From Piscicoccus intestinalis NBRC 104926 (GTDB lineage: Bacteria > Actinomycetota > Actinomycetes > Actinomycetales > Dermatophilaceae), in the NCBI RefSeq assembly GCF_001515525.1, contig NZ_BCNQ01000003.1, positions 1 to 64,000 of the forward strand: a DNA stretch of 64,000 bases, read 5' to 3'. The notes beneath the pieces were generated by a model, which saw only the letters and a program-made list of their open reading frames with translations, searched no databases and had not been told where the DNA came from. The translations under genes were made by a program, and so were the position numbers. This document shows positions 50,955 to 62,902 of the stretch, one piece after another (position 1 is the first letter of the stretch; each line of letters opens with the position of its first letter).

Positions 50955-51218
50955 CTACTGCGCTCCGGACGACGGTTCCTGACCGTTCTGGGCGGCGGCG
51001 TGGATGCGCCGCGCGAGTTCCGCGGCAGAGCCCGGTGTCGTCGACGACTCCCGGTTGGTCCGCTGCAGCTCGCGGTAGATCTCCTCGCGGTGGATGTCGA
51101 CGTCGCTCGGTGCCGTGATGCCGAGCCGGACCGTATCGCCGTTGACCTCGAGCACCGTGACGACCACGTCGTGGCCGATGAGCAGGCTCTGCTGGGGGCG
51201 ACGGCTGAGAACGAGCAC
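50955..51218 (-). CDS. csrA: Carbon storage regulator CsrA, 87 aa
   Basis: An RNA-binding repressor of translation. It opens with the strand VLSRRPQQSLLIG, then VTVLEVNGDTVRLGITAP and VDIHREEIYREL with the conserved Arg near residue 44 that contacts RNA. In flagellate Gram-positives it blocks flagellin translation. A 35-residue Ala/Gln/Ser-rich tail is longer than usual. GTG 51218 has AAAGGA at the right spacing. It follows fliW by 110 bp on the same strand. Confidence 0.93.
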   Translation of the reverse strand: MLVLSRRPQQSLLIGHDVVVTVLEVNGDTVRLGITAPSDVDIHREEIYRELQRTNRESSTTPGSAAELARRIHAAAQNGQEPSSGAQ

Positions 51219-51328
51219 GATCGGTCCTTTCGGGGCGCGGGAGTCGCACCTCTGCGTTGCTCGACAGGTTAGCGCGACAACGGCTTTCGGTCTCCCACGG
51301 CGTCGGTGGGCCGCGCCCCGCCGCCCGG

Positions 51329-51724
51329 TCACGGGCGCGGAAAGGTTGCCCGCAACGGCAGCTCCTGGTCGATGAGAACGACCTGCATGCCCTCCCCGCT
51401 GCGTCGGTTGACGAGCAGCGGCGCGAGCAGATTCGCCCCGGGCGGCTCGCGATCGGTGCCGAGGTTGACCAGGAGCAGGACGAGTAGCTCCTCGGGAGAC
51501 CGCACGCGCAGGTGATCGGCCGTCTCCGGGTCGATGATCGGGGAGTACGCGGGAAAGTAGGGCGTCGGCGTCACGGCGACGAACCCCAGCCCCGGCTCGT
51601 CGAGGCTCTCCAGGTCGTAGAGGTCCGGCTCGGTGCGGCGCACCCGAAACCGCCGGGCCGTCGGGAGCCCGACGAGGCCCAGCGGCAGGCGCACGACCTC
51701 GGGCAGGCCGTCGGTGTCGGTCAC
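51329..51724 (-). CDS. fliW: Flagellar assembly factor FliW, 131 aa
   Basis: FliW binds CsrA to lift its repression and is itself held by unsecreted flagellin. LPLGLVGLPTARRFRVRR, LESLDEPGLGFVAVTPTPYFPAYSP and LLVLLLVNLGTD...NLLAPLLVN follow the family order. GTG 51724 overlaps the upstream flgN stop by four bases. csrA follows. flgK and flgL, which usually lie between flgN and fliW, are missing here. Confidence 0.9.
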   Translation of the reverse strand: MTDTDGLPEVVRLPLGLVGLPTARRFRVRRTEPDLYDLESLDEPGLGFVAVTPTPYFPAYSPIIDPETADHLRVRSPEELLVLLLVNLGTDREPPGANLLAPLLVNRRSGEGMQVVLIDQELPLRATFPRP

Positions 51725-52239
51725 GACCCCGCGTCGCCCGGTCGCGGGCGCTCCGGCAGCGGGGCGCCCACGCCCCCGGCCGCGTCGAACTGGTCGAGGG
51801 TCTCCTGCACGGCCTCGTACGCGTCGGCGAGCAACCGGCTGTTCGACCGGCTCACGGTCGACAGCTCCGCGGTGAGCTGCGTCAAGGCTCGTCGGTGCTC
51901 GGCGAGCAGGTCGTTCCACGGAGCCGGTGCGGCCTGCGCGAGTCGTGCCAGCGAGGTGCCGGCGGGCAGGCCGAGCGCCTCGCAGGCGGGCCCGGCGTCG
52001 AGGGCCCGCATGAGTTCGGCCTCCCGCATCTGCTGCAGGAGCACCTCGATCTCCCGCGTGCAGCGGCCCAGCCAGCGAGCGCGCCCCGTCTCGAGGATGA
52101 GCTGCTGGACCTCCAGCTTGTACGTCAGGGTCTCCAACAGCTCCTGCAGGCGCCACAGCGCGCTCGACAGGTTCGACAGCGCGGCCACGGTGTCGTCGGA
52201 CACCGGGCCGGACAGCGGGCCGGTCACCCGGCCGGCCAC
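51721..52239 (-). CDS. FlgN-type flagellar export chaperone, 172 aa
   Basis: An all-helical protein of the actinobacterial FlgN type: LSSALWRLQELLETLTYKLEVQQLIL and TGRARWLGRCTREIEVLLQQMREAEL mark the N-terminal half, and a second coiled segment (LLAEHRRALTQLTAELSTVSRSN) follows. FlgN escorts the hook-filament junction proteins FlgK and FlgL. GTG 52239 with GCGAGG upstream is preferred; GTG 52203 is possible. It is the first gene of the flgN-fliW-csrA run. Confidence 0.82.
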   Translation of the reverse strand: MAGRVTGPLSGPVSDDTVAALSNLSSALWRLQELLETLTYKLEVQQLILETGRARWLGRCTREIEVLLQQMREAELMRALDAGPACEALGLPAGTSLARLAQAAPAPWNDLLAEHRRALTQLTAELSTVSRSNSRLLADAYEAVQETLDQFDAAGGVGAPLPERPRPGDAGS

Positions 52240-52622
52240 GCGGGCCTCGCTTCGTTCACGCGGTGCTCATCGTCGTCGCCGGCGGCCAGTTGAGCGTTTC
52301 TCCAGGCCGCGGCGGCGACGGGTGCCGCACCGACCCGGACCGCGACGCGCGCGAATTTGATTGCCGGTCGGTCGAATACGCACCGAGCCTTACTGCAGGA
52401 CGATTGTTCAGAAAAGGCGACGGAAATTCTGGACGGTTGTTCAATTCTCTGGCGTGAGGAAATCGGGTCGCTCGTCCAAATGGTTATCAAGAAGCTGCGA
52501 AAACCTTTCAGGTTGTATCCAACATGCCCTCAAAATCCGCTCGAAACCAGGCTTTGACCTGCGGATTCTCACGATGTGGGCCTTCATTGGGGAATGCTCA
52601 GGTGCTTCATAACTTGGTTTTC
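52240..52622. other. AT-rich divergent region before the flagellar sigma factor
   Basis: 383 bp between flgN and the sigma factor gene. From about 52360 to 52620 it is far richer in A and T than any other stretch in the window and holds no convincing gene. CTTCATAACTTGG near the end includes the sigma gene -10 box. Such base composition suggests a silenced or nucleoid-protein-bound control region. Confidence 0.6.
52610..52615 (+). promoter_or_regulatory. -10 box of the flagellar sigma factor gene (leaderless)
   Basis: TAACTT, 7 bp before GTG 52623, inside the AT-rich region. No ribosome site lies between. Confidence 0.45.
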
Positions 52623-53498
52623 GTGACCGCTTCAGAAATCGTTCCTTCCTCGCCATCCGAGGTGGATGTGGATGAGTTGTGCCGAGTGCATCTTCCCCTC
52701 GTGAATTTCGAGGTGCGCGCGATCTCTTCACGGCTGCCCGGTCACGTCTACACCGATGATCTGGTGAGCGCGGGAATGGCCGCTCTGGCCATGGCCGCTC
52801 GCAGTTTCGACGCGAGCCTGGGGGTGCCGTTCGGGCGCTACGCGGTGCGCCGCATCCGGGGTGCCTTGCTCGACGAGCTGCGCAGCGCCGACTGGGCGAC
52901 GCGCTCGCTGCGCAGCAAGGTGCGCCGGCGGGACGCCGTGCACGACGCGCTCGCGGCCAGCCTCGGCCGGCGCCCGACCGATCCGGAGGTCGCCGCCGAG
53001 ATGGGTGTCAGCGTCGCCGAACTCGAGCGGCTCGACGCCGACCTGCACAGCTCGGTCGTGCTGCGCCTCGACGTCATCACCGACTCCGTGGGGGCCGACG
53101 CCGTGCTGCCGAGCACGTCGGCCACGCCCGAGGCGACGCTCGTGGCCCGCGAGCGACAGGCCTACCTGCGCGACGCCATCGACGCCCTGCCCGAGCGGTT
53201 GCAGGTGGTGGTGCGCGGATGCTTCTTCGAGGACCGGCCGATGCGTGAGCTCGCCGAGGAGCTCGGCGTCACCGAGTCGCGGATCTCGCAGATGCGCGCC
53301 GAGGCGCTCAAGCTGCTGCGCGACGGCATGAACTCCCAGCTGGCGCCCGAACTCGTGACGGTGCCGGCCAACGCCGCGGGAGCGGTTGCTCGCCGCAAGG
53401 CCTCGTACTACGCCTCGATCGCCGCGCGCTCCAGCTACCGCGACCGGCTCACGATGCCGACGGCCACCGAAGAGGGATCGCAGTTCGAGGCGGTCTGA
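52623..53498 (+). CDS. FliA/WhiG-family sigma factor, 291 aa
   Basis: Region 2 is HVYTDDLVSAGMAALAMAARSFDASLGVPFGRYAVRRIRGALLDELRSADW (read in order), including the FliA-type RIRGALLDELR core; region 3 has RRPTDPEVAAEMGVSVAELERLD; region 4 is DALPERLQVVVRGCFFEDRPMRELAEELGVTESRISQMRAEALK. It should direct RNA polymerase to promoters like TAAA-N15-GCCGATAA. Two matches lie downstream (55154-55179, 63007-63032). The C-terminal 50 residues are basic and family-specific. GTG 52623 is supported by the -10 box; a longer frame opens at 52524. Confidence 0.9.
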   Translation: MTASEIVPSSPSEVDVDELCRVHLPLVNFEVRAISSRLPGHVYTDDLVSAGMAALAMAARSFDASLGVPFGRYAVRRIRGALLDELRSADWATRSLRSKVRRRDAVHDALAASLGRRPTDPEVAAEMGVSVAELERLDADLHSSVVLRLDVITDSVGADAVLPSTSATPEATLVARERQAYLRDAIDALPERLQVVVRGCFFEDRPMRELAEELGVTESRISQMRAEALKLLRDGMNSQLAPELVTVPANAAGAVARRKASYYASIAARSSYRDRLTMPTATEEGSQFEAV

Positions 53499-54670: not shown

Positions 54671-55185
54671 CCATGCCGCCGCGCTGAACGGCGACCGCGG
54701 ACCGGGTCGCCGGCCCCGGCCGCGAGGCTACCGCTCCCGACCAAACGTTCGTCCAGTCTCGGTAAGGATCGCGTCAAGATCGCTCAGCGCACCCCGTCCG
54801 GCGCCGAAGGAGCCGGTGTCGCGACCAGGTCGGAGCCGGTCGGGGCGCCACGCCGGGCATCGTCTGGAACGGTCACACGTGCGCATGGATGCGAATCGAC
54901 GCCCCGTGGCGCCCGCTTCGGCTCCGGCCGCGTGCGCGACCTCACCGTCACGGCGCACCCCGCCGCCGCATTCCGATGGGCGCGCGGACGCCCGGCGGCT
55001 GCGCGAGTCCGAAGCGGCGTCGTCGTCGCGCGCTGCTCACGGTCAAACCCGTGTGCCCGCCCGCAAACCACCGAGCCCCGGCGAGACGCGTCCACCCTTC
55101 ACCGGCCGCGACCACGCCGTGAGCTTATAGCAGATCGACGCGAATTCGTCACTTAAGACACGCCGGGCACCGTCGATAGGTGGGC
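54671..55185. other. Divergent region before the glycosyltransferase gene
   Basis: 515 bp, high GC at left with several short out-of-frame openings I do not support, and AT-richer at 55115-55160 (GAGCTTATAGCAG, GCGAATTCG). The sigma-28-type promoter is at 55154-55179. Confidence 0.45.
55154..55179 (+). promoter_or_regulatory. Sigma-28 (FliA/WhiG)-type promoter
   Basis: TAAG (55154-55157), 14 bp, then GTCGATAG (55172-55179). The FliA/WhiG consensus is TAAA-N15/16-GCCGATAA. It lies 6 bp before ATG 55186, so the message should be leaderless. The cognate sigma factor gene is 1.7 kb upstream. Confidence 0.65.
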
Positions 55186-56454
55186 ATGACAGCCCCCCGG
55201 ATCACCGTCTGCCTCGTCGTCGGTGACGAGGCCCGTGACCCGCACGGATGCTTGCAGTCCGCGCGACAGCTGGGTCATCTGCTGACCGGGATCTGCGTGT
55301 ACGCGGCCGGCGCCTCCGAATCCATCCTGTCCGCCGCCCGGCACGCGGGCGCCAAGGTGCAGATCGCCCACTGGGACGGCGACCTCTCGGCCGCCCGCAA
55401 CGCCGCCGCCTGCATGACGACCGCCCCCTGGGTGCTCGTGCTCGAGCCGCACGAGCGGGTGCGCGTCGACATTCCTGCGCTGACCACGCTGCTGTCGCTG
55501 CCGGATCGCATGGTGGGGGAGCCGGATGCGATGACGGTGCAGGTCGCCGGCCGGCATGGGGGACACGGCCGGCGCGAGCAGCGGCTCTACCGGCCCGACC
55601 GGGCGCACTTCACCGGGGCGCTGGAGGCGCGTCTGGAGCCGCTGGTGCCCGGGCGTCGGCTCGTCACCGTGGGCGCCGGCACCGAGGCGTTGTCGATCTG
55701 GTCGGTCGTGGCGGAGCCCGACGCTGCCCTCGAGCGGGACCGGCTCGAGCGCCGACTCGACCGGGCGTACTCCGCGGTGGCCACGCTGGAGGCCGGCGGG
55801 GTCGGCGGCAACGACCTGGTGACCGCGCTCGTCGAACGCTCCCGCGCCCACCGCGCGCTCGGCGACGACAACCGGGCCCTGGCCGACCTCAACCGGGCGC
55901 GACGGGTCAAGGCCAGTGACACCTACCGCTGGCGGGCCCGCGAGGACCTGACGACGCTGCTCATCGAGCACGGCTACTACGACGGGGCGAACCGGCTGAT
56001 CGCCGAGTTGCGGGCCGACGGCGCCGACGAACAGTACAGCGATTGGCTCACCGCGCAGCTGCACTCGGCGCAGGGGCAGGCCCGCGTGGCCTGGGACATC
56101 CTGGCCCGGCTCGAGAACGCGACGGACTCCGAGGGCCGGGTCGTCGCGACGCCGCAGATCCTCGCCGAACAGATGCACCTGGCGAACCGGCTGGGGGAGT
56201 TCGACGAGGCCCTGGCCCGGTGCGTCGACCTCATCGCTCGGTACGGGCTGGCCGCCCGGCACGGCCGCATGCTCTTCAAGCTGTGGGGTCCGCGGAGCTT
56301 GACCGGCCTGGCCGACATGATCATTCAGGCCGACGCGCGCCGACTCGACGAGGTCGCCGACGGCTTCGACACGCTGCCCGCCCCCGGCCCGGAGCTGGCG
56401 GCCGCGCTGCGCGAGGTGCGCACCGACACCCCCAAGGCCGTCCGCATCATGTGA
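55186..56454 (+). CDS. Glycosyltransferase family 2-like protein with TPR-like C-terminus, 422 aa
   Basis: The N-terminal domain matches GT-A glycosyltransferases: TVCLVVGDEARDPHGCLQS, then WDGDLSAARNAAACMTTAPWVLVLEPHERV with the acidic position replaced by EPHE. The C-terminal 200 residues are helical repeats (HRALGDDNRALADLNRARRVKASDTYRWRARED, EYGYYDGANRLIAEL-like) resembling TPRs. Such fusions occur in flagellin and surface-polysaccharide clusters. The sigma-28-type promoter directly before the start argues for flagellar co-regulation, so flagellin glycosylation is the best inference. ATG 55186 fits a leaderless start. Confidence 0.78.
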   Translation: MTAPRITVCLVVGDEARDPHGCLQSARQLGHLLTGICVYAAGASESILSAARHAGAKVQIAHWDGDLSAARNAAACMTTAPWVLVLEPHERVRVDIPALTTLLSLPDRMVGEPDAMTVQVAGRHGGHGRREQRLYRPDRAHFTGALEARLEPLVPGRRLVTVGAGTEALSIWSVVAEPDAALERDRLERRLDRAYSAVATLEAGGVGGNDLVTALVERSRAHRALGDDNRALADLNRARRVKASDTYRWRAREDLTTLLIEHGYYDGANRLIAELRADGADEQYSDWLTAQLHSAQGQARVAWDILARLENATDSEGRVVATPQILAEQMHLANRLGEFDEALARCVDLIARYGLAARHGRMLFKLWGPRSLTGLADMIIQADARRLDEVADGFDTLPAPGPELAAALREVRTDTPKAVRIM

Positions 56455-56492: not shown

Positions 56493-57224
56493 TCAGACCG
56501 GGTAGTCGGGGTAGCCAGGCGCTTCTGGGTGCTCCGCGGGATCCGGTCGCAGCCGCGGTTTCACGAGCCCGAGTTCGCACGCGCGCACGAGCACCTGCAC
56601 CCGGCTGGAGACGCCGAACTTCGTCGTCAGCTGCACGAGCCGGGACTTCACCGCCGCCTCGCTGAGGCTGAGTTCGCGCGCCATCGCCGGGTTGCTCAGC
56701 CCCTGCGCCAACAGGTCCAGCACCTCGCGCTCGCGCTCGGTCAGCGGCGGCGGGTGCGCCTCACGGCCTCCGTCGGGAGCCGGGTCGGGCGCGGCCGGCG
56801 TGGCCCCGACCGCCGCGATGAGCGCCTCGGTGACCCGCGGCGACAGCGGCCGTCCGCCGCCGAAGACCTCGTGCACCGCCGCCACCAGTTCCTCCGGGGT
56901 GCTCTCCTTGAGCAGGTAGCCGTCGGCCCCCGCCCGCAGCGCCGGCACCACCGAGTCGGTCGTGGCGAATGTGGTGACGACCACGATTTTCACTTCGGGA
57001 TGCCGAGCCCGGATGAGTCGGGTCGCGGCGATGCCGTCGAGCACGGGCATCGACAGGTCCATGAGCACGCCCGCGGGCGCGAGATCGGCGGTGAGGTCGA
57101 CCGCCTCCTGCCCGGTGCCCGCCAGCGCGATGACCTCGAACTCCCCGCTGCTCTCCAGGAACAGCTTGAGGCCCTGGGCCATCAGGGCCTCATCGTCGGC
57201 GATGAGGATTCGCCTGCGGGTCAT
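56493..57224 (-). CDS. NarL-type response regulator, 243 aa
   Basis: Receiver with ILIADDEALMAQGLK, phospho-acceptor Asp in VLMDLSMPVLDG, VVVTTFATTD and YLLKESTPEE. The LuxR-type helix-turn-helix follows a 35-residue linker (TEREREVLDLLAQGLSNPAMARELSLSEAAVKSRLVQLTTKFG, read in order). ATG 57224 places the receiver at the N-terminus. It is divergent from a small secreted peptide and a kinase gene, which are its likely signal and partner. Confidence 0.9.
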   Translation of the reverse strand: MTRRRILIADDEALMAQGLKLFLESSGEFEVIALAGTGQEAVDLTADLAPAGVLMDLSMPVLDGIAATRLIRARHPEVKIVVVTTFATTDSVVPALRAGADGYLLKESTPEELVAAVHEVFGGGRPLSPRVTEALIAAVGATPAAPDPAPDGGREAHPPPLTEREREVLDLLAQGLSNPAMARELSLSEAAVKSRLVQLTTKFGVSSRVQVLVRACELGLVKPRLRPDPAEHPEAPGYPDYPV

Positions 57225-57367
57225 CTGGCCGTCCTGAGTGGTTCTCCGGCGCGTCACGCGGAGCGGGGCTGCGTCAACTGTGGGGGCGCCTGTGGGTCGC
57301 CCGACGGGGCTAGTTTGCCTGACCGAGCGGCCCGTGGGGGTCGCCGACACGAACCAGGAGTTCTGCC

Positions 57368-57607
57368 ATGCGTCGTCTACCCACCCTCATCGTCGCGAGC
57401 ACCTGCGCCGCCCTGTTCGCCGTCGCCGGAGCGGCTACCGCCGGCGCCCAGCCGGTGTCGAGCCAGAGCCTGCCCTCGGTGTCCGTCGTCTCCGCCGGTC
57501 GCGGAGGCGGGCCCGTCACCCCCGGCAACCCCGGCGGTGGCGGAAACCAGAGCCCGGACGGCTGGGGGGCCGGGCTCTGTGAGCTCGTGCCCATCTTCTG
57601 CAGCTAA
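57368..57607 (+). CDS. Small secreted peptide with C-terminal Cys-x6-Cys, 79 aa
   Basis: A signal peptide (MRRLPTLIVASTCAALFAVAG) with a likely cleavage after Ala27 leaves about 52 residues. The mature part is Gly/Pro/Ser-rich (SAGRGGGPVTPGNPGGGGNQ) and ends GLCELVPIFCS, where Cys71 and Cys78 could close a loop. AGGAG lies at the right distance from ATG 57368, so it is well translated. It is followed after 12 bp by a histidine kinase gene and is divergent from its regulator. This layout suggests a signal peptide, an effector or a bacteriocin-like product; no family is recognised. Confidence 0.7.
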   Translation: MRRLPTLIVASTCAALFAVAGAATAGAQPVSSQSLPSVSVVSAGRGGGPVTPGNPGGGGNQSPDGWGAGLCELVPIFCS

Positions 57608-57619
57608 TGTGACGGGGTT

Positions 57620-58873
57620 GTGACGCCGGATCCTCGCAACCCCCGAACAGATGCCGCCGGGCAGCGATTTGGCGCGTCCACCCGCCGGGGCCCGCGCTGG
57701 TGGTTCGTCGGATACGTGGCCTTGGGTGCACTCGTGCTGGCCAACTTATTCAGCGACATCATCTATTACGCGGAGCAGGACTCCTTGCCCGTTGCGACGC
57801 GTATCACCGCGGTGGCATCGGCGAGCCTGGGTCTGCTCGCCATGACTCTCGCCGTCCGGTGGACCCGCATCGCCACCGCCGTCGCGATCCTGACCCTGGC
57901 CACGTCACTGCTGTCACATCAACTGCCCTACGGGCTGGGCGTGATCGCGATCTTCGTGTTCCTCGCGGCGCTGCGCACCGATCCGGTCGCCGGCGCGATG
58001 ATCGGCGTGGCGAGCGTGGTCTGGCTGGTCGGGATCGCGCTGCGCAGCACCGAACGCGCCGAGCTGGTGGCCTGGACGGTGGTGATGCTGTCGTTGATCT
58101 CCGGTTTCGTGGGGTGGACCTTGGGCGCGACGAGGAGACGAAACGTGGTCATCGAGCAGCGCGCGGCTCAGCTGGAAGCGCAGGTGGCGCGGGTGCGGCA
58201 GCGTGAGCGGCAGTCGCTGGCGCGGGAGCTGCACGACGTCGTCGCGCACGGCCTCACGCTCATCTCGATGCAGGCCACCGTGCTGCGGATCACCCCCGAC
58301 CCCGCCATGCAGGAGACGGCCCGCGACGCGATCGAGCGGTCCTCGCGGGAGTCGCTGGAGGAGCTGCGGCGCCTGCTGCTGGTGCTGCGCGCCAGCGACG
58401 TCATCGCCGACGAGGCCGGGGAGCCGCAGGCGTCGTGGCCCGCCGAGGCCTCGGAGGGGGCCCACGAGGGGCGGGAGAGTCACGGCCGGTCGACGACCGA
58501 CCTGTCCCGGCTCGTGGACCGGCTCGCGGACGACCTGCGGGCCGCGGGCCACAGCGTGCGCGTCGAGTGCTCGGTCGGGCGGCTCGCGCCCAGCGTGCAC
58601 CTCGCGGCGGATCGCGTTCTGCGAGAAGCGACGACGAACATCGTCAAACATGGTGGGGCGACCGCGGCCTGCGAGATCCTGGTGCGTGACACCCCGGACG
58701 GGCTGGTCGTCGAGGTGGCCAACGACATCGGCGGCCGCGCCGTCGCCGACTTCGGCTCCACCGGGCTCGGCGTCATCGGTCTCACCGAGCGCGTGGAACT
58801 GCTCGGCGGGCGGCTCGAAGCCGGCCCCGACGGCGGGCGCTGGCGGGTGCGGGCGGTGCTGCCGGGCGCGTGA
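57620..58873 (+). CDS. Sensor histidine kinase with six membrane helices, 417 aa
   Basis: Six hydrophobic helices (residues about 27-175) form the sensor. HisKA_3 phospho-acceptor His in ARELHDVVAHGLTLISMQ and an ATPase domain with REATTNIVKHGGA, LVVEVANDIGG and GLGVIGLTERVELLGGRL. The multi-helix sensor resembles kinases of peptide quorum sensing and cell-envelope stress. GTG 57620 starts 12 bp after the peptide stop with GGGG upstream, so peptide and kinase share a message. The regulator is divergent at 56493-57224. Confidence 0.87.
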   Translation: MTPDPRNPRTDAAGQRFGASTRRGPRWWFVGYVALGALVLANLFSDIIYYAEQDSLPVATRITAVASASLGLLAMTLAVRWTRIATAVAILTLATSLLSHQLPYGLGVIAIFVFLAALRTDPVAGAMIGVASVVWLVGIALRSTERAELVAWTVVMLSLISGFVGWTLGATRRRNVVIEQRAAQLEAQVARVRQRERQSLARELHDVVAHGLTLISMQATVLRITPDPAMQETARDAIERSSRESLEELRRLLLVLRASDVIADEAGEPQASWPAEASEGAHEGRESHGRSTTDLSRLVDRLADDLRAAGHSVRVECSVGRLAPSVHLAADRVLREATTNIVKHGGATAACEILVRDTPDGLVVEVANDIGGRAVADFGSTGLGVIGLTERVELLGGRLEAGPDGGRWRVRAVLPGA

Positions 58874-59377: not shown

Positions 59378-62300
59378 ATGGGTCTCACCGATATGCACGA
59401 CGCCATCAATTTGCGCCTGGCCTTGCTTGACCTTCCGCATGAGACCGCCGACGGCGGCCCGGAGTCGGTCGTGTCCCCCTTGCTGGCGCGCCAGCGTGAA
59501 CTGTCCCGCCGCCTCGACCAGCGCCCGCCCCGCGTCGACGAGCGCGTGCAGGCGTTTCTCGACGACTACCTGTCCGACGTGGCAGGCTCCGTGCGGCTGC
59601 CGCGCACGTCCCTCGTCCTCGACCAGCCGGGCCTGGCCCGCGAACTCTCCCTGCCGGCTCGCGAGGACTACTTCTCGTCCTCGCTCGTGCGCAGCTACCG
59701 CCTCCTCAACGGCGTGCTGCACAACCCGCACAACGACCGGCGCACGACCGCCGGCGTCTTCCACATCGCCGACGGCGGCCTGGCGATCACGCAGGACAAG
59801 CGCATCGTGCCGAAGGCCGTCTACGCCCGGCTGCTCGACCTGGCCACCAAGCCGCCGCGCGAGTCGATGGTGCTGCCGTACACGGCCGGCCTCGAGGAGC
59901 CGGCGGCCTGCTTCGTCTCCCTGCTGCTGCGCCCGCTGGTCGCGCCGGCCGTGCCCGGTGTCGAGGGCGAGCGGCGCATGGAGATCCGGTTCATGGCCCC
60001 CGGCAGCCTCGTCAGCAACCTCGACTTCGTCGAAGGCATCTTCGGCAACGGCGGCGACCCGTATCTGCCCGACAACGACGCCGCGATGGCCCCGAGCGGC
60101 TGGACCGGGCACACCGGCTACGTCATCCTCGCCCCGCACCTGACCTCGGTGACCAAGAAGGAACTCGGGCTCCCGCACTACGACCACGCCACCGAGCGGC
60201 AGCGCCGCGACCGGATGTGCTGGCGCAGCGAGGGCGAGCTGTACAACGACGGGCAGGCCTTCAAGGCGTGCGCCCGCGACGAGCGCGGCATCATCGTCAC
60301 CGTCATCGCCGACAACTACTTCGGCTACTGCAAGAAGGAGGTCAAGACGCAGATCGGCTACTCCGCCAACCTCTCCGGGCAGGTGGAGGAGGAGCACAGC
60401 GGCGGCGCCCTGGCCTTTCCCAGTTACGACCTCGGGCGCGAGTTCCTCGACCGGTTCGGCAGCGCCGAGGCGTCGGTGGCCGCGGTCGTGGCCCGCGACC
60501 CGGAGGTCTTCGAACGGCGCCCCGAGGGGCACGCCGTGCACCGCGAGCACCCGTTCGTCGTCGTGCCCGCCCGCGCCACGTACAGCCTGCGCTCCATGAC
60601 CGTCAGCTGGGACGGACCGCTCGGGCGCGGCGAGATCCCGCTGCGCGCCGACCGCACGTACTTCGGTCCCGACGGCTACCGCGTCGCGATGGCGCAGCAC
60701 CCCGACGACCGCACCCAGTGGACGCTCGTCGGCACCTCCCCGGTCGTCACCGGCTTCCACAAGCCCAGCACCGTCTCCGGAGGCGGTAAGTCCGAGATCT
60801 CCAAGGCGATCACCGACTCCATCGGGTACGGCACCGCGTACGTCTCGGACTTCCGCGAGGACATGGCAGCGGTCGAGTCGATCCTCGCCTACGACCTGCC
60901 GAACCGCTTCGCCGACCCGGAGCGGTGCGGCACCGACACCCGCTCGGTGCTCGGGCAGGACCGCAGCGTCGGCAGCGTCATCAAGCTGCTGACTCCGAGC
61001 AACGAGTACACCGACGAGTACAACGCGTGGCTCGAGACGATCCCCTCGCACGTCAAGGAGCTGCTCTACGTCATCAAGAGCGCCTACCGCCCCGAGTGGG
61101 GGGACGACTGGAAGCGGCACTTCAGCGTCGGCATCATCAACGGCCGGCAGGGCAACGTGCTGCGCCTCGACGGCAACCGCGTGCGGGTCAACACGCTGCG
61201 CGTCGGGTTCGACAAAGACGGCTCGTGGCGCGTGTTCGGCCTGCGGCCCGACTTCAGCCCGGCCGTCAAGGTGCAGACCGAAGACGACATCACCGCGAGC
61301 GTCGTCGTCTCCCCGGAGACGGCCGCGGCGGCCGGCAGCACCCGGGGCCTGTCCGCCAAGATCGTCGAGAACTGCGAGATGCTGCTCTTCCAGCGGCCCG
61401 ACGACGCGATCCACCGCGGCTACGACAAGCAGGCCGAGCGGGACATCTCCGCGCCCGGCACGTTCCTGTCGAACTTCGAGCCGCTCGACCGTTCGACCGC
61501 CGTCGCCATGCGCGACGACGCGGTGAACTTCAGCCGCTTCACCGCCCCCGTGCAGAACCTCATCCAGCGGGCCGCGTCGGCCGCGCCGGAGTCGGCGAGC
61601 CACGGGCACGGGTTCGACCACGGCAACGGGCACGGCAACGGGCATGGGCATGGCAACGGGCTCGGGCATGGCAACGGGCACGGGGTCTCGGCGCAGGCCC
61701 CGGAGGGTGTGGAGTCGGTGTCGGCGGATGACCCGGAGTATTTCGTGTGCTCGGCCAATCCCCGCCTCGTGGGCGGCAAGCCGACGAAGAACCCGCGCTA
61801 CCTGCAGGTGCGTCCCGACCTGGCCCGCCCGGTCGAGACCGCGGCGGCCGAGCTCGCGCTGCACCTGCGCAACCGGGCCAGTGTGACCCGTACGATCCCG
61901 CACGTCGTCGACATCGTCGCGGCCGGGCGGCGCAACAACCCGCCGGAAGACGGGGTGCCGGCGTTGTGCGCGTTCAACCCGCTGCACTACATGGAGCTGC
62001 CCGAGCTGTTCATGGAGTTCATCAGCTCGATGACCGGCAAGTCGCCGTCGACGACCGGAGCGGGTTCGGAGGGCGCGCTGACGAAGGCGCCGTTCAACGC
62101 GATGCCGACGACGTTCGACCTCAACTCGGCGTTGCTGTCGTACGTGCTCACCGGTTACGACGGCTGGATCTCCAGCGCCGGGTACATCGGCCCGCAGGTG
62201 CGCGTCGACCACGACATCAGCCTGCTCATCCCCGAGGTGTTCTCGCGGATGAAGCCGCAGGAGCGCGACGCGGCGACGCTCGTGGCGGAGGGCTCGCTGG

Positions 62301-62902
62301 AGCGGATCGAGGATCTTGAGGTCGACGGGCGGGTCGTCGCCGCGAGCCGGCTCGGCTACCGCATCACCGAGCGGTTCGCCTCCCGCTACTTCGGACGCAT
62401 CTTCATGCACCCCGAGGTCGTGTTCACCCCGGACATGCTGCGACCCGAGCAGCAGGATCTGGGCGTCTTCGTCGACGCCATCGACACGATGGTCACGACC
62501 CACGGGCGGGTGGCGCGCGGCTACTTCGACGACGGCACGGCCGACCTCGCGGTGCCGCCGCTGCGGGCGCTGCTGGAGATCATGGCGTACGGGCAGAGTG
62601 CCGCCGGCCTCACCCTGGACTCCCCGGAGCTGCGGGAGATGTTCGACCGGGAGAACGTGCTGGCCAGCGACTGGTACGCGGCCCGGCTCGACTCCCGCCA
62701 GGGCGAGGAGGTCGCGCACCTCGAGGCGGGCGTGCGCACCCTGTCCGACTTCGTCGCGGCCCCCGGCAACGCGGCGGTCGTCGCGCGCCTCGGCCTCGAC
62801 GAGCGGCTCTACCGGGTGCGTGAGGAGCTGGCCCGGGTCTCCTCCGACGGGCACCGGCGCTCGCTCATCGGCACCATCGGTCGTGAGGTTCGATTCCGCT
62901 AG
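59378..62902 (+). CDS. Probable PPi-dependent phosphoenolpyruvate carboxykinase, 1174 aa
   Basis: A very large single-chain protein with two phosphate-loop-like segments, GFHKPSTVSGGGKSEISK (about residues 458-475) and TGKSPSTTGAGSEGALTKAP (about 885-904), close to ELPELFMEFISS and FNAMPTTFDLN. Size and these motifs match the pyrophosphate-type PEPCK known from Propionibacterium and Entamoeba, which links oxaloacetate and PEP with PPi. This is recalled from family knowledge and not aligned. Residues about 742-768 are a His/Gly/Asn repeat (HGNGHGNGHGHGNG) in a hypervariable linker. ATG 59378 has a weak ribosome site; ATG 59393 is possible. It fits the fermentative theme of the PFOR operon. Confidence 0.62.
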   Translation: MGLTDMHDAINLRLALLDLPHETADGGPESVVSPLLARQRELSRRLDQRPPRVDERVQAFLDDYLSDVAGSVRLPRTSLVLDQPGLARELSLPAREDYFSSSLVRSYRLLNGVLHNPHNDRRTTAGVFHIADGGLAITQDKRIVPKAVYARLLDLATKPPRESMVLPYTAGLEEPAACFVSLLLRPLVAPAVPGVEGERRMEIRFMAPGSLVSNLDFVEGIFGNGGDPYLPDNDAAMAPSGWTGHTGYVILAPHLTSVTKKELGLPHYDHATERQRRDRMCWRSEGELYNDGQAFKACARDERGIIVTVIADNYFGYCKKEVKTQIGYSANLSGQVEEEHSGGALAFPSYDLGREFLDRFGSAEASVAAVVARDPEVFERRPEGHAVHREHPFVVVPARATYSLRSMTVSWDGPLGRGEIPLRADRTYFGPDGYRVAMAQHPDDRTQWTLVGTSPVVTGFHKPSTVSGGGKSEISKAITDSIGYGTAYVSDFREDMAAVESILAYDLPNRFADPERCGTDTRSVLGQDRSVGSVIKLLTPSNEYTDEYNAWLETIPSHVKELLYVIKSAYRPEWGDDWKRHFSVGIINGRQGNVLRLDGNRVRVNTLRVGFDKDGSWRVFGLRPDFSPAVKVQTEDDITASVVVSPETAAAAGSTRGLSAKIVENCEMLLFQRPDDAIHRGYDKQAERDISAPGTFLSNFEPLDRSTAVAMRDDAVNFSRFTAPVQNLIQRAASAAPESASHGHGFDHGNGHGNGHGHGNGLGHGNGHGVSAQAPEGVESVSADDPEYFVCSANPRLVGGKPTKNPRYLQVRPDLARPVETAAAELALHLRNRASVTRTIPHVVDIVAAGRRNNPPEDGVPALCAFNPLHYMELPELFMEFISSMTGKSPSTTGAGSEGALTKAPFNAMPTTFDLNSALLSYVLTGYDGWISSAGYIGPQVRVDHDISLLIPEVFSRMKPQERDAATLVAEGSLERIEDLEVDGRVVAASRLGYRITERFASRYFGRIFMHPEVVFTPDMLRPEQQDLGVFVDAIDTMVTTHGRVARGYFDDGTADLAVPPLRALLEIMAYGQSAAGLTLDSPELREMFDRENVLASDWYAARLDSRQGEEVAHLEAGVRTLSDFVAAPGNAAVVARLGLDERLYRVREELARVSSDGHRRSLIGTIGREVRFR

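Follow-up and report, generated by a model that had tools for sequence, protein, structure and literature searches.

The window, that is, the whole 64,000-nucleotide stretch of Piscicoccus intestinalis NBRC 104926 DNA under analysis, carries a gene for a small, putatively secreted Cys-loop peptide that is followed by a sensor histidine kinase gene and faces a divergent response regulator gene. The best explanation of this locus, at a probability of roughly 0.65, is a self-contained peptide–kinase–regulator signalling cassette in which a Sec-exported, looped peptide is read by the kinase. The cassette itself is almost certainly real and the peptide probably acts on the adjacent kinase; we also lean towards a pheromone role, with action from cell to cell. 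From the sequences, we infer a peptide that is oxidised, serves as the kinase ligand and works between cells.

Layout of the locus

The peptide gene (57368–57607, plus strand), with an AGGAG found 5′ of its ATG, encodes a precursor of 79 residues. A 12-bp gap (57608–57619) separates its stop codon from the GTG start of the kinase gene (57620–58873, plus strand). The NarL/GerE-type regulator gene, presumed to be the cognate one, lies on the minus strand (56493–57224) and starts with an ATG at 57224; 143 bp separate it from the start codon of the peptide gene. Re-reading of the open reading frames confirmed the first-pass annotation on all these coordinates, as well as on the Cys-x6-Cys of the peptide, the gap and the divergent regulator. 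By its position, the 143-bp intergenic region (57225–57367) probably holds a shared promoter and a regulator site. It contains an imperfect 17-bp direct repeat (57285–57301 and 57329–57345); neither an inverted repeat nor a sigma-70 match was found within the 143 bp, and an alignment of seven close relatives together with a palindrome search of the divergent promoter gave nothing clear as a regulator-binding site.

The peptide precursor and its conserved core

The peptide ORF is a real coding gene. In the window sequence, its GC content at the three codon positions is 0.69, 0.66 and 0.86, and pN/pS averages 0.30 among five close homologues from other genomes, which indicates purifying selection on the ORF as a protein. 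Residues 1–27 (57368–57448) form a predicted Sec signal peptide, with an RR-containing n-region and a hydrophobic stretch finishing in an A-x-A site, AGA|Q, after residue 27; cleavage after A-G-A would leave a predicted mature part of 52 residues. The signal peptides of this precursor and its homologues were assigned by eye, without SignalP; on inspection, signal-peptide-like N-termini are also present in most homologues. The precursors of the G066, G167 and G997 carriers are short, and a classical signal peptide is weak or missing in at least two of these three.

The tail of the window peptide reads GWGAGLC-ELVPIF-CS, in which Cys-71 and Cys-78 are spaced as C-x6-C and Cys-78 lies one residue ahead of the stop codon. 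It contains the conserved C-terminal core GWGAGLCELVPIFCS (57560–57604, plus strand), defined from a 26-peptide consensus, with the ring C71-x3-P-x2-C78. This core recurs before orthologous kinases elsewhere and takes the shared form G-hydrophobic-x3-hydrophobic-C-x-hydrophobic-hydrophobic-P-x-x-C across carriers. The conservation of C, P and C is uninformative because these residues are the search motif. Outside the motif, Gly occupies position −6 in 20 of the 26 peptides, position −1 is hydrophobic in every one of them, Asp is found at −3 in 12, and positions +2, +3 and +6 are mostly hydrophobic. The ring side chains vary by genus (ELVPIF, TIYPNW, HYIPIA and YFFPRI); the signal peptide and the linker or middle part of the precursor diverge, and the ring is retained. 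The two conserved cysteines suggest a disulfide. When representative peptides, the window peptide included, were compared with Pfam and NCBIfam, no model passed its cut-off, in agreement with the earlier reading that it belongs to no known peptide family.

The kinase and the regulator

The domain assignments made at first pass were likewise supported. The kinase matched HisKA_3 (PF07730, 3e-15) and, weakly, HATPase_c (PF02518, 3e-4); the latter match, at 21.6 bits, falls under the curated cut-off of 26.4, and the fold nonetheless matches DesK, to which the cytoplasmic part of the kinase was matched in the PDB. The regulator has Response_reg (PF00072) and GerE (PF00196) domains, so that both proteins have the domains of a HisKA_3/NarL-type two-component system. 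An AlphaFold2 model of the kinase, built on an alignment of two sequences and of low confidence (mean pLDDT 65), shows six helices (27–52, 58–78, 82–99, 102–119, 122–142 and one starting at 146). According to this model, the kinase is predicted to have six membrane spans that lead into the DHp helix, with little outside the membrane and without a large extracytoplasmic domain.

Occurrence of the cassette in other genomes

The same-genus genome G002 (record JAUNUZ010000269.1, 'Micrococcales bacterium isolate S7A_St_1') carries the regulator, peptide and kinase genes in identical order. Its regulator, also divergent, is 59% identical to that of the window and its kinase 51%. Its peptide, of the secreted type by sequence, has 58 residues and thus differs in length from the window peptide; the middle parts are little alike, and both peptides terminate in GWGxxLCxxxPxxCx. 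The orthologous kinase is missing from G001, the third member of the genus, so the carriers in the genus are the window genome and G002 only.

A search of 84,980 species for the exact pattern GWG..LC...P..C plus stop yielded G002 and 13 other matches. The 13 were rejected as frames without a convincing secreted precursor, their number being roughly that expected by chance. The whole-peptide protein search gave only noise, and viral contigs and plasmids gave no match. The pattern is too narrow; a kinase-led search worked instead. A two-kinase profile retrieved orthologous kinases from further families of the same order, a class-wide search followed, and a six-kinase profile was then applied by family. 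In this way, a short ORF with a C-terminal C-x3-P-x2-C, directly before an orthologous HisKA_3 kinase and with an adjacent NarL regulator, was found in 27 genomes of two orders, including the longer-tailed G946 (locus L142). Carriers occur in families f1 and f12 of the same order and in f57 of another order of the class. Rather than being absent or frame-broken next to orthologous kinases, the Cys-loop is therefore conserved in 27 genomes, in line with the first-pass annotation. Examples are ...MALCDLIPELC... in G246, ...DTLCQLYPQLCGR in G066, ...DTFCKLFPFLC in G337, where the peptide stop overlaps the kinase start, and ...YALCSYYPDWC... in G791 of family f57.

The carrier branch of kinases also includes variants of other spacing: WCSAFPWWPGCR in G069, CWLLGPLWGEHC in G152, LCGYFLYLFCR in G974, CQVLGDFFEKC in G534 and G444, and CFFFKRC in G250, together with the leaderless CKLLRACS in G343 and CRLLKICK in G1035. 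Inside the branch, kinases L008/L195 and L105 are preceded by other short ORFs instead of the canonical peptide. At L105 (reverse complement 1350–1394), a possible leaderless, Cys-less peptide of 15 residues, MGIFYIFGKMIGIFR, precedes a kinase with a divergent regulator and is perhaps a different type of ligand in the same kinase branch. The near-identical kinases L200 and L202 come from two genomes; the peptide is intact in L202 (...DPCWLLGPLWGEHC) and its frame is broken in L200, possibly through loss of the signal or an assembly error. One genome, G948, has two high-scoring profile kinases (C26, 2e-66; C22, 1.5e-62) and possibly holds two cassettes. No canonical peptide was found before branch kinases L090, L144 and L145. 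As the upstream scans spanned about 450–900 bp and used fixed motifs, absence of a peptide at a locus is not proof.

Chance controls and the kinase tree

For 161 kinases, we obtained a score with the six-kinase profile and searched the 450 bp upstream for ORFs that finish in C...P..C followed by no more than 12 residues; the scored kinases of L147, L149, L154 and L155 are close to the edge of their locus, so that the upstream region was poorly covered there. The peptide was present at every one of the six training kinases, partly by selection. Among held-out kinases scoring 200–400 bits, the strict search found the peptide at 12 of 21 (57%). A motif ORF preceded 8 of the 91 kinases at 140–200 bits and none of the 43 distant paralogues below 140 bits. 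One of these eight, L119, an apparent carrier outside the branch, proved spurious, a Cys-rich reading without the look of a secreted peptide, and was not counted. The reverse strand and the downstream region each gave 0/161, and shuffled upstream DNA gave motif ORFs at a rate of 0.65% (20/3100). The related genomes are not independent, so Fisher p-values on the carrier counts are indicative only.

In a tree of 94 kinases, all 26 scored carriers and the six variants fell among 47 rows, with none among the other 47. The carrier label changed 6 times on this tree, compared with a mean of 23.1 for shuffled labels. The tree is a quick one in which the dividing fork has weak support (47) and an opposing set of 44 rows is supported at 100.

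Proposed mechanism and alternative explanations

In the mechanism that we propose, for which export and ring closure are read from sequence, the precursor would leave the cell by the general Sec route, and signal peptidase would cut after AGA to free a C-terminal peptide of 52 residues. Oxidation of Cys-71 and Cys-78 would then produce an eight-residue hydrophobic ring, kinked at the invariant proline. Adjacency and the shared branch point to recognition of this ring by the six-helix membrane domain of the kinase, which would phosphorylate the divergent NarL/GerE regulator. Given the divergent layout, the first site of action of the regulator is probably the shared 143-bp promoter region, which would amount to autoinduction; targets elsewhere may follow.

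The main rival explanation, which we consider unlikely, is that the peptide serves as a cell-autonomous accessory subunit. After export, it would stay at the producer membrane and, instead of signalling between cells, inhibit or activate the kinase in cis; its two cysteines might make it a reporter of the envelope redox state or of secretion stress. Such a role is consistent with the tight adjacency and conservation with the carrier kinase branch, the invariant cysteine pair, the very short, hydrophobic nature of some precursors (G066 and G167) and the likeness of the cytoplasmic part of the kinase to DesK, an intramembrane stress sensor. However, the signal peptides with A-x-A sites seen by inspection in most precursors imply that the product should leave the membrane. 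Moreover, the ring side chains diversify by genus while the C, P and hydrophobic positions stay, a pattern that fits ligand specificity.

Less likely still, and in our judgement improbable, is a bacteriocin or other toxic peptide whose synthesis the neighbouring two-component system would control, whether autoinduced or not. A small, secreted, disulfide-type peptide beside a kinase and a regulator is indeed the layout of regulated bacteriocins, but the gene neighbourhood argues against this explanation. Across 20 further loci, inspected up to 8 kb on each side, the kinase and NarL-type regulator alone recur widely, with a regulator homologue beside the kinase in nearly all loci examined, and the loci therefore have no exporter, processing enzyme or target operon in common. 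No immunity, ABC-exporter, modification or toxin gene is common to these 20 loci, and a C39 peptidase occurs in one of 14 carrier genomes and not in the window genome. The core, furthermore, stays with a single kinase branch as the remainder of the locus changes. AgrB (PF04647) was found in none of the 14 carrier genomes. The first-pass annotation had recognised the layout of autoinducing-peptide or bacteriocin control systems. The conserved loop strengthens the peptide-signalling part of that reading; the lack of AgrB, the near-absence of C39 peptidase and the lack of a shared exporter or toxin gene weigh against the remainder.

An unrelated small secreted protein preceding the kinase, with a motif due to chance or to ancestry without signalling function, is very improbable: short, low-complexity precursors are easily over-interpreted and the direct peptide search matches were noise, but the chance rate of 0.65% stands against 57% in held-out close orthologues, the reverse-strand and downstream controls were zero, and the peptide is under purifying selection.

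Genomic context

The placement of the cassette beside flagellar genes had earlier been taken to suggest control of motility or surface state. Genes for CsrA (PF02599), FliW (PF02623) and a FliA/WhiG-like sigma factor (179 bits, below the cut-off of 189.6) are grouped at 50961–53498, 3–6 kb upstream of the cassette, and FlbD sits past the window end. Flagellar regulators are thus near in the window genome, but the other common neighbours in the 20 loci are mostly restricted to close relatives. The neighbours are not conserved across genomes; the motility or surface-state proposal is not supported beyond the window genome, and any such link would be local. Two further ORFs, neither of which matched Pfam or NCBIfam at the thresholds applied, flank the cassette: one of 424 residues upstream of the regulator (55180–56454), whose C-terminal part has a homologue at the equivalent place in G002 (L002:2489–2884), and one of 1174 residues 3′ of the kinase (59378–62902).

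Relation to known systems and significance

By the parts tested, the cassette most resembles ComX–ComP–ComA in kinase and regulator class and agr in its putative ring peptide and six-helix sensor, and it is a member of neither. ComP and ComA are generally assigned to the HisKA_3 and NarL classes. As in the comQXPA system of Bacillus, the peptide gene adjoins a polytopic kinase of the HisKA_3 class that is paired with a NarL/FixJ-type regulator. Unlike comQXPA, no ComQ-like prenyltransferase is present among the conserved neighbours compared, and the peptide has a predicted Sec signal peptide and a Cys-P-Cys ring, whereas ComX has a modified Trp. A 2022 census of two-component quorum-sensing systems cites ComP as a member of HPK7 and ComA as one of the FixJ family; it lists the full Com pathway for bacilli and the greater part of it for clostridia, and neither Com nor Agr as a complete pathway for actinobacteria (PMC8895600).

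With the AgrD–AgrB–AgrC–AgrA system of Firmicutes, the cassette shares a small, putatively ring-forming Cys peptide and a six-helix kinase without a large outer domain. The agr peptide, in contrast, has one Cys closing on its C-terminus instead of two conserved cysteines, and agr is of the LytTR type, whereas the cassette combines a HisKA_3 kinase, a GerE regulator and a predicted Sec signal peptide. By these parts the cassette is not an agr system, AgrB being absent from all 14 carrier genomes and the regulator being GerE rather than LytTR. In double-glycine pheromone systems (ComC/ComDE and BlpC), peptide, kinase and regulator are also encoded together, but the leader here is of the Sec type with an A-x-A site and not a GG leader; the C39 peptidase missing from 13 of 14 carrier genomes also speaks against membership of this pheromone and bacteriocin-control group. 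DesK–DesR is similar in its cytoplasmic kinase domain, NarL-type regulator and compact membrane sensor. It differs in that the kinase branch here retains a peptide gene; DesK is not known to have a partner peptide.

Firmicutes are the main group in which peptide quorum sensing through two-component systems is known. A search of 5.39 million open-access papers yielded no description of the peptide. We judge it slightly better than an even chance that these cassettes represent an undescribed actinobacterial class of peptide quorum sensing, in which Sec-exported disulfide-ring pheromones with diverged rings (pherotypes) would be paired with six-helix HisKA_3 receptor kinases and NarL regulators, without dedicated processing or export machinery. 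If true, this would account for one branch of orphan HisKA_3 sensor kinases. A conserved peptide–receptor pair in several actinobacterial families would give these bacteria a directly testable peptide language, with short, gene-encoded ligands that can be synthesised cheaply and a receptor encoded by the adjoining gene.
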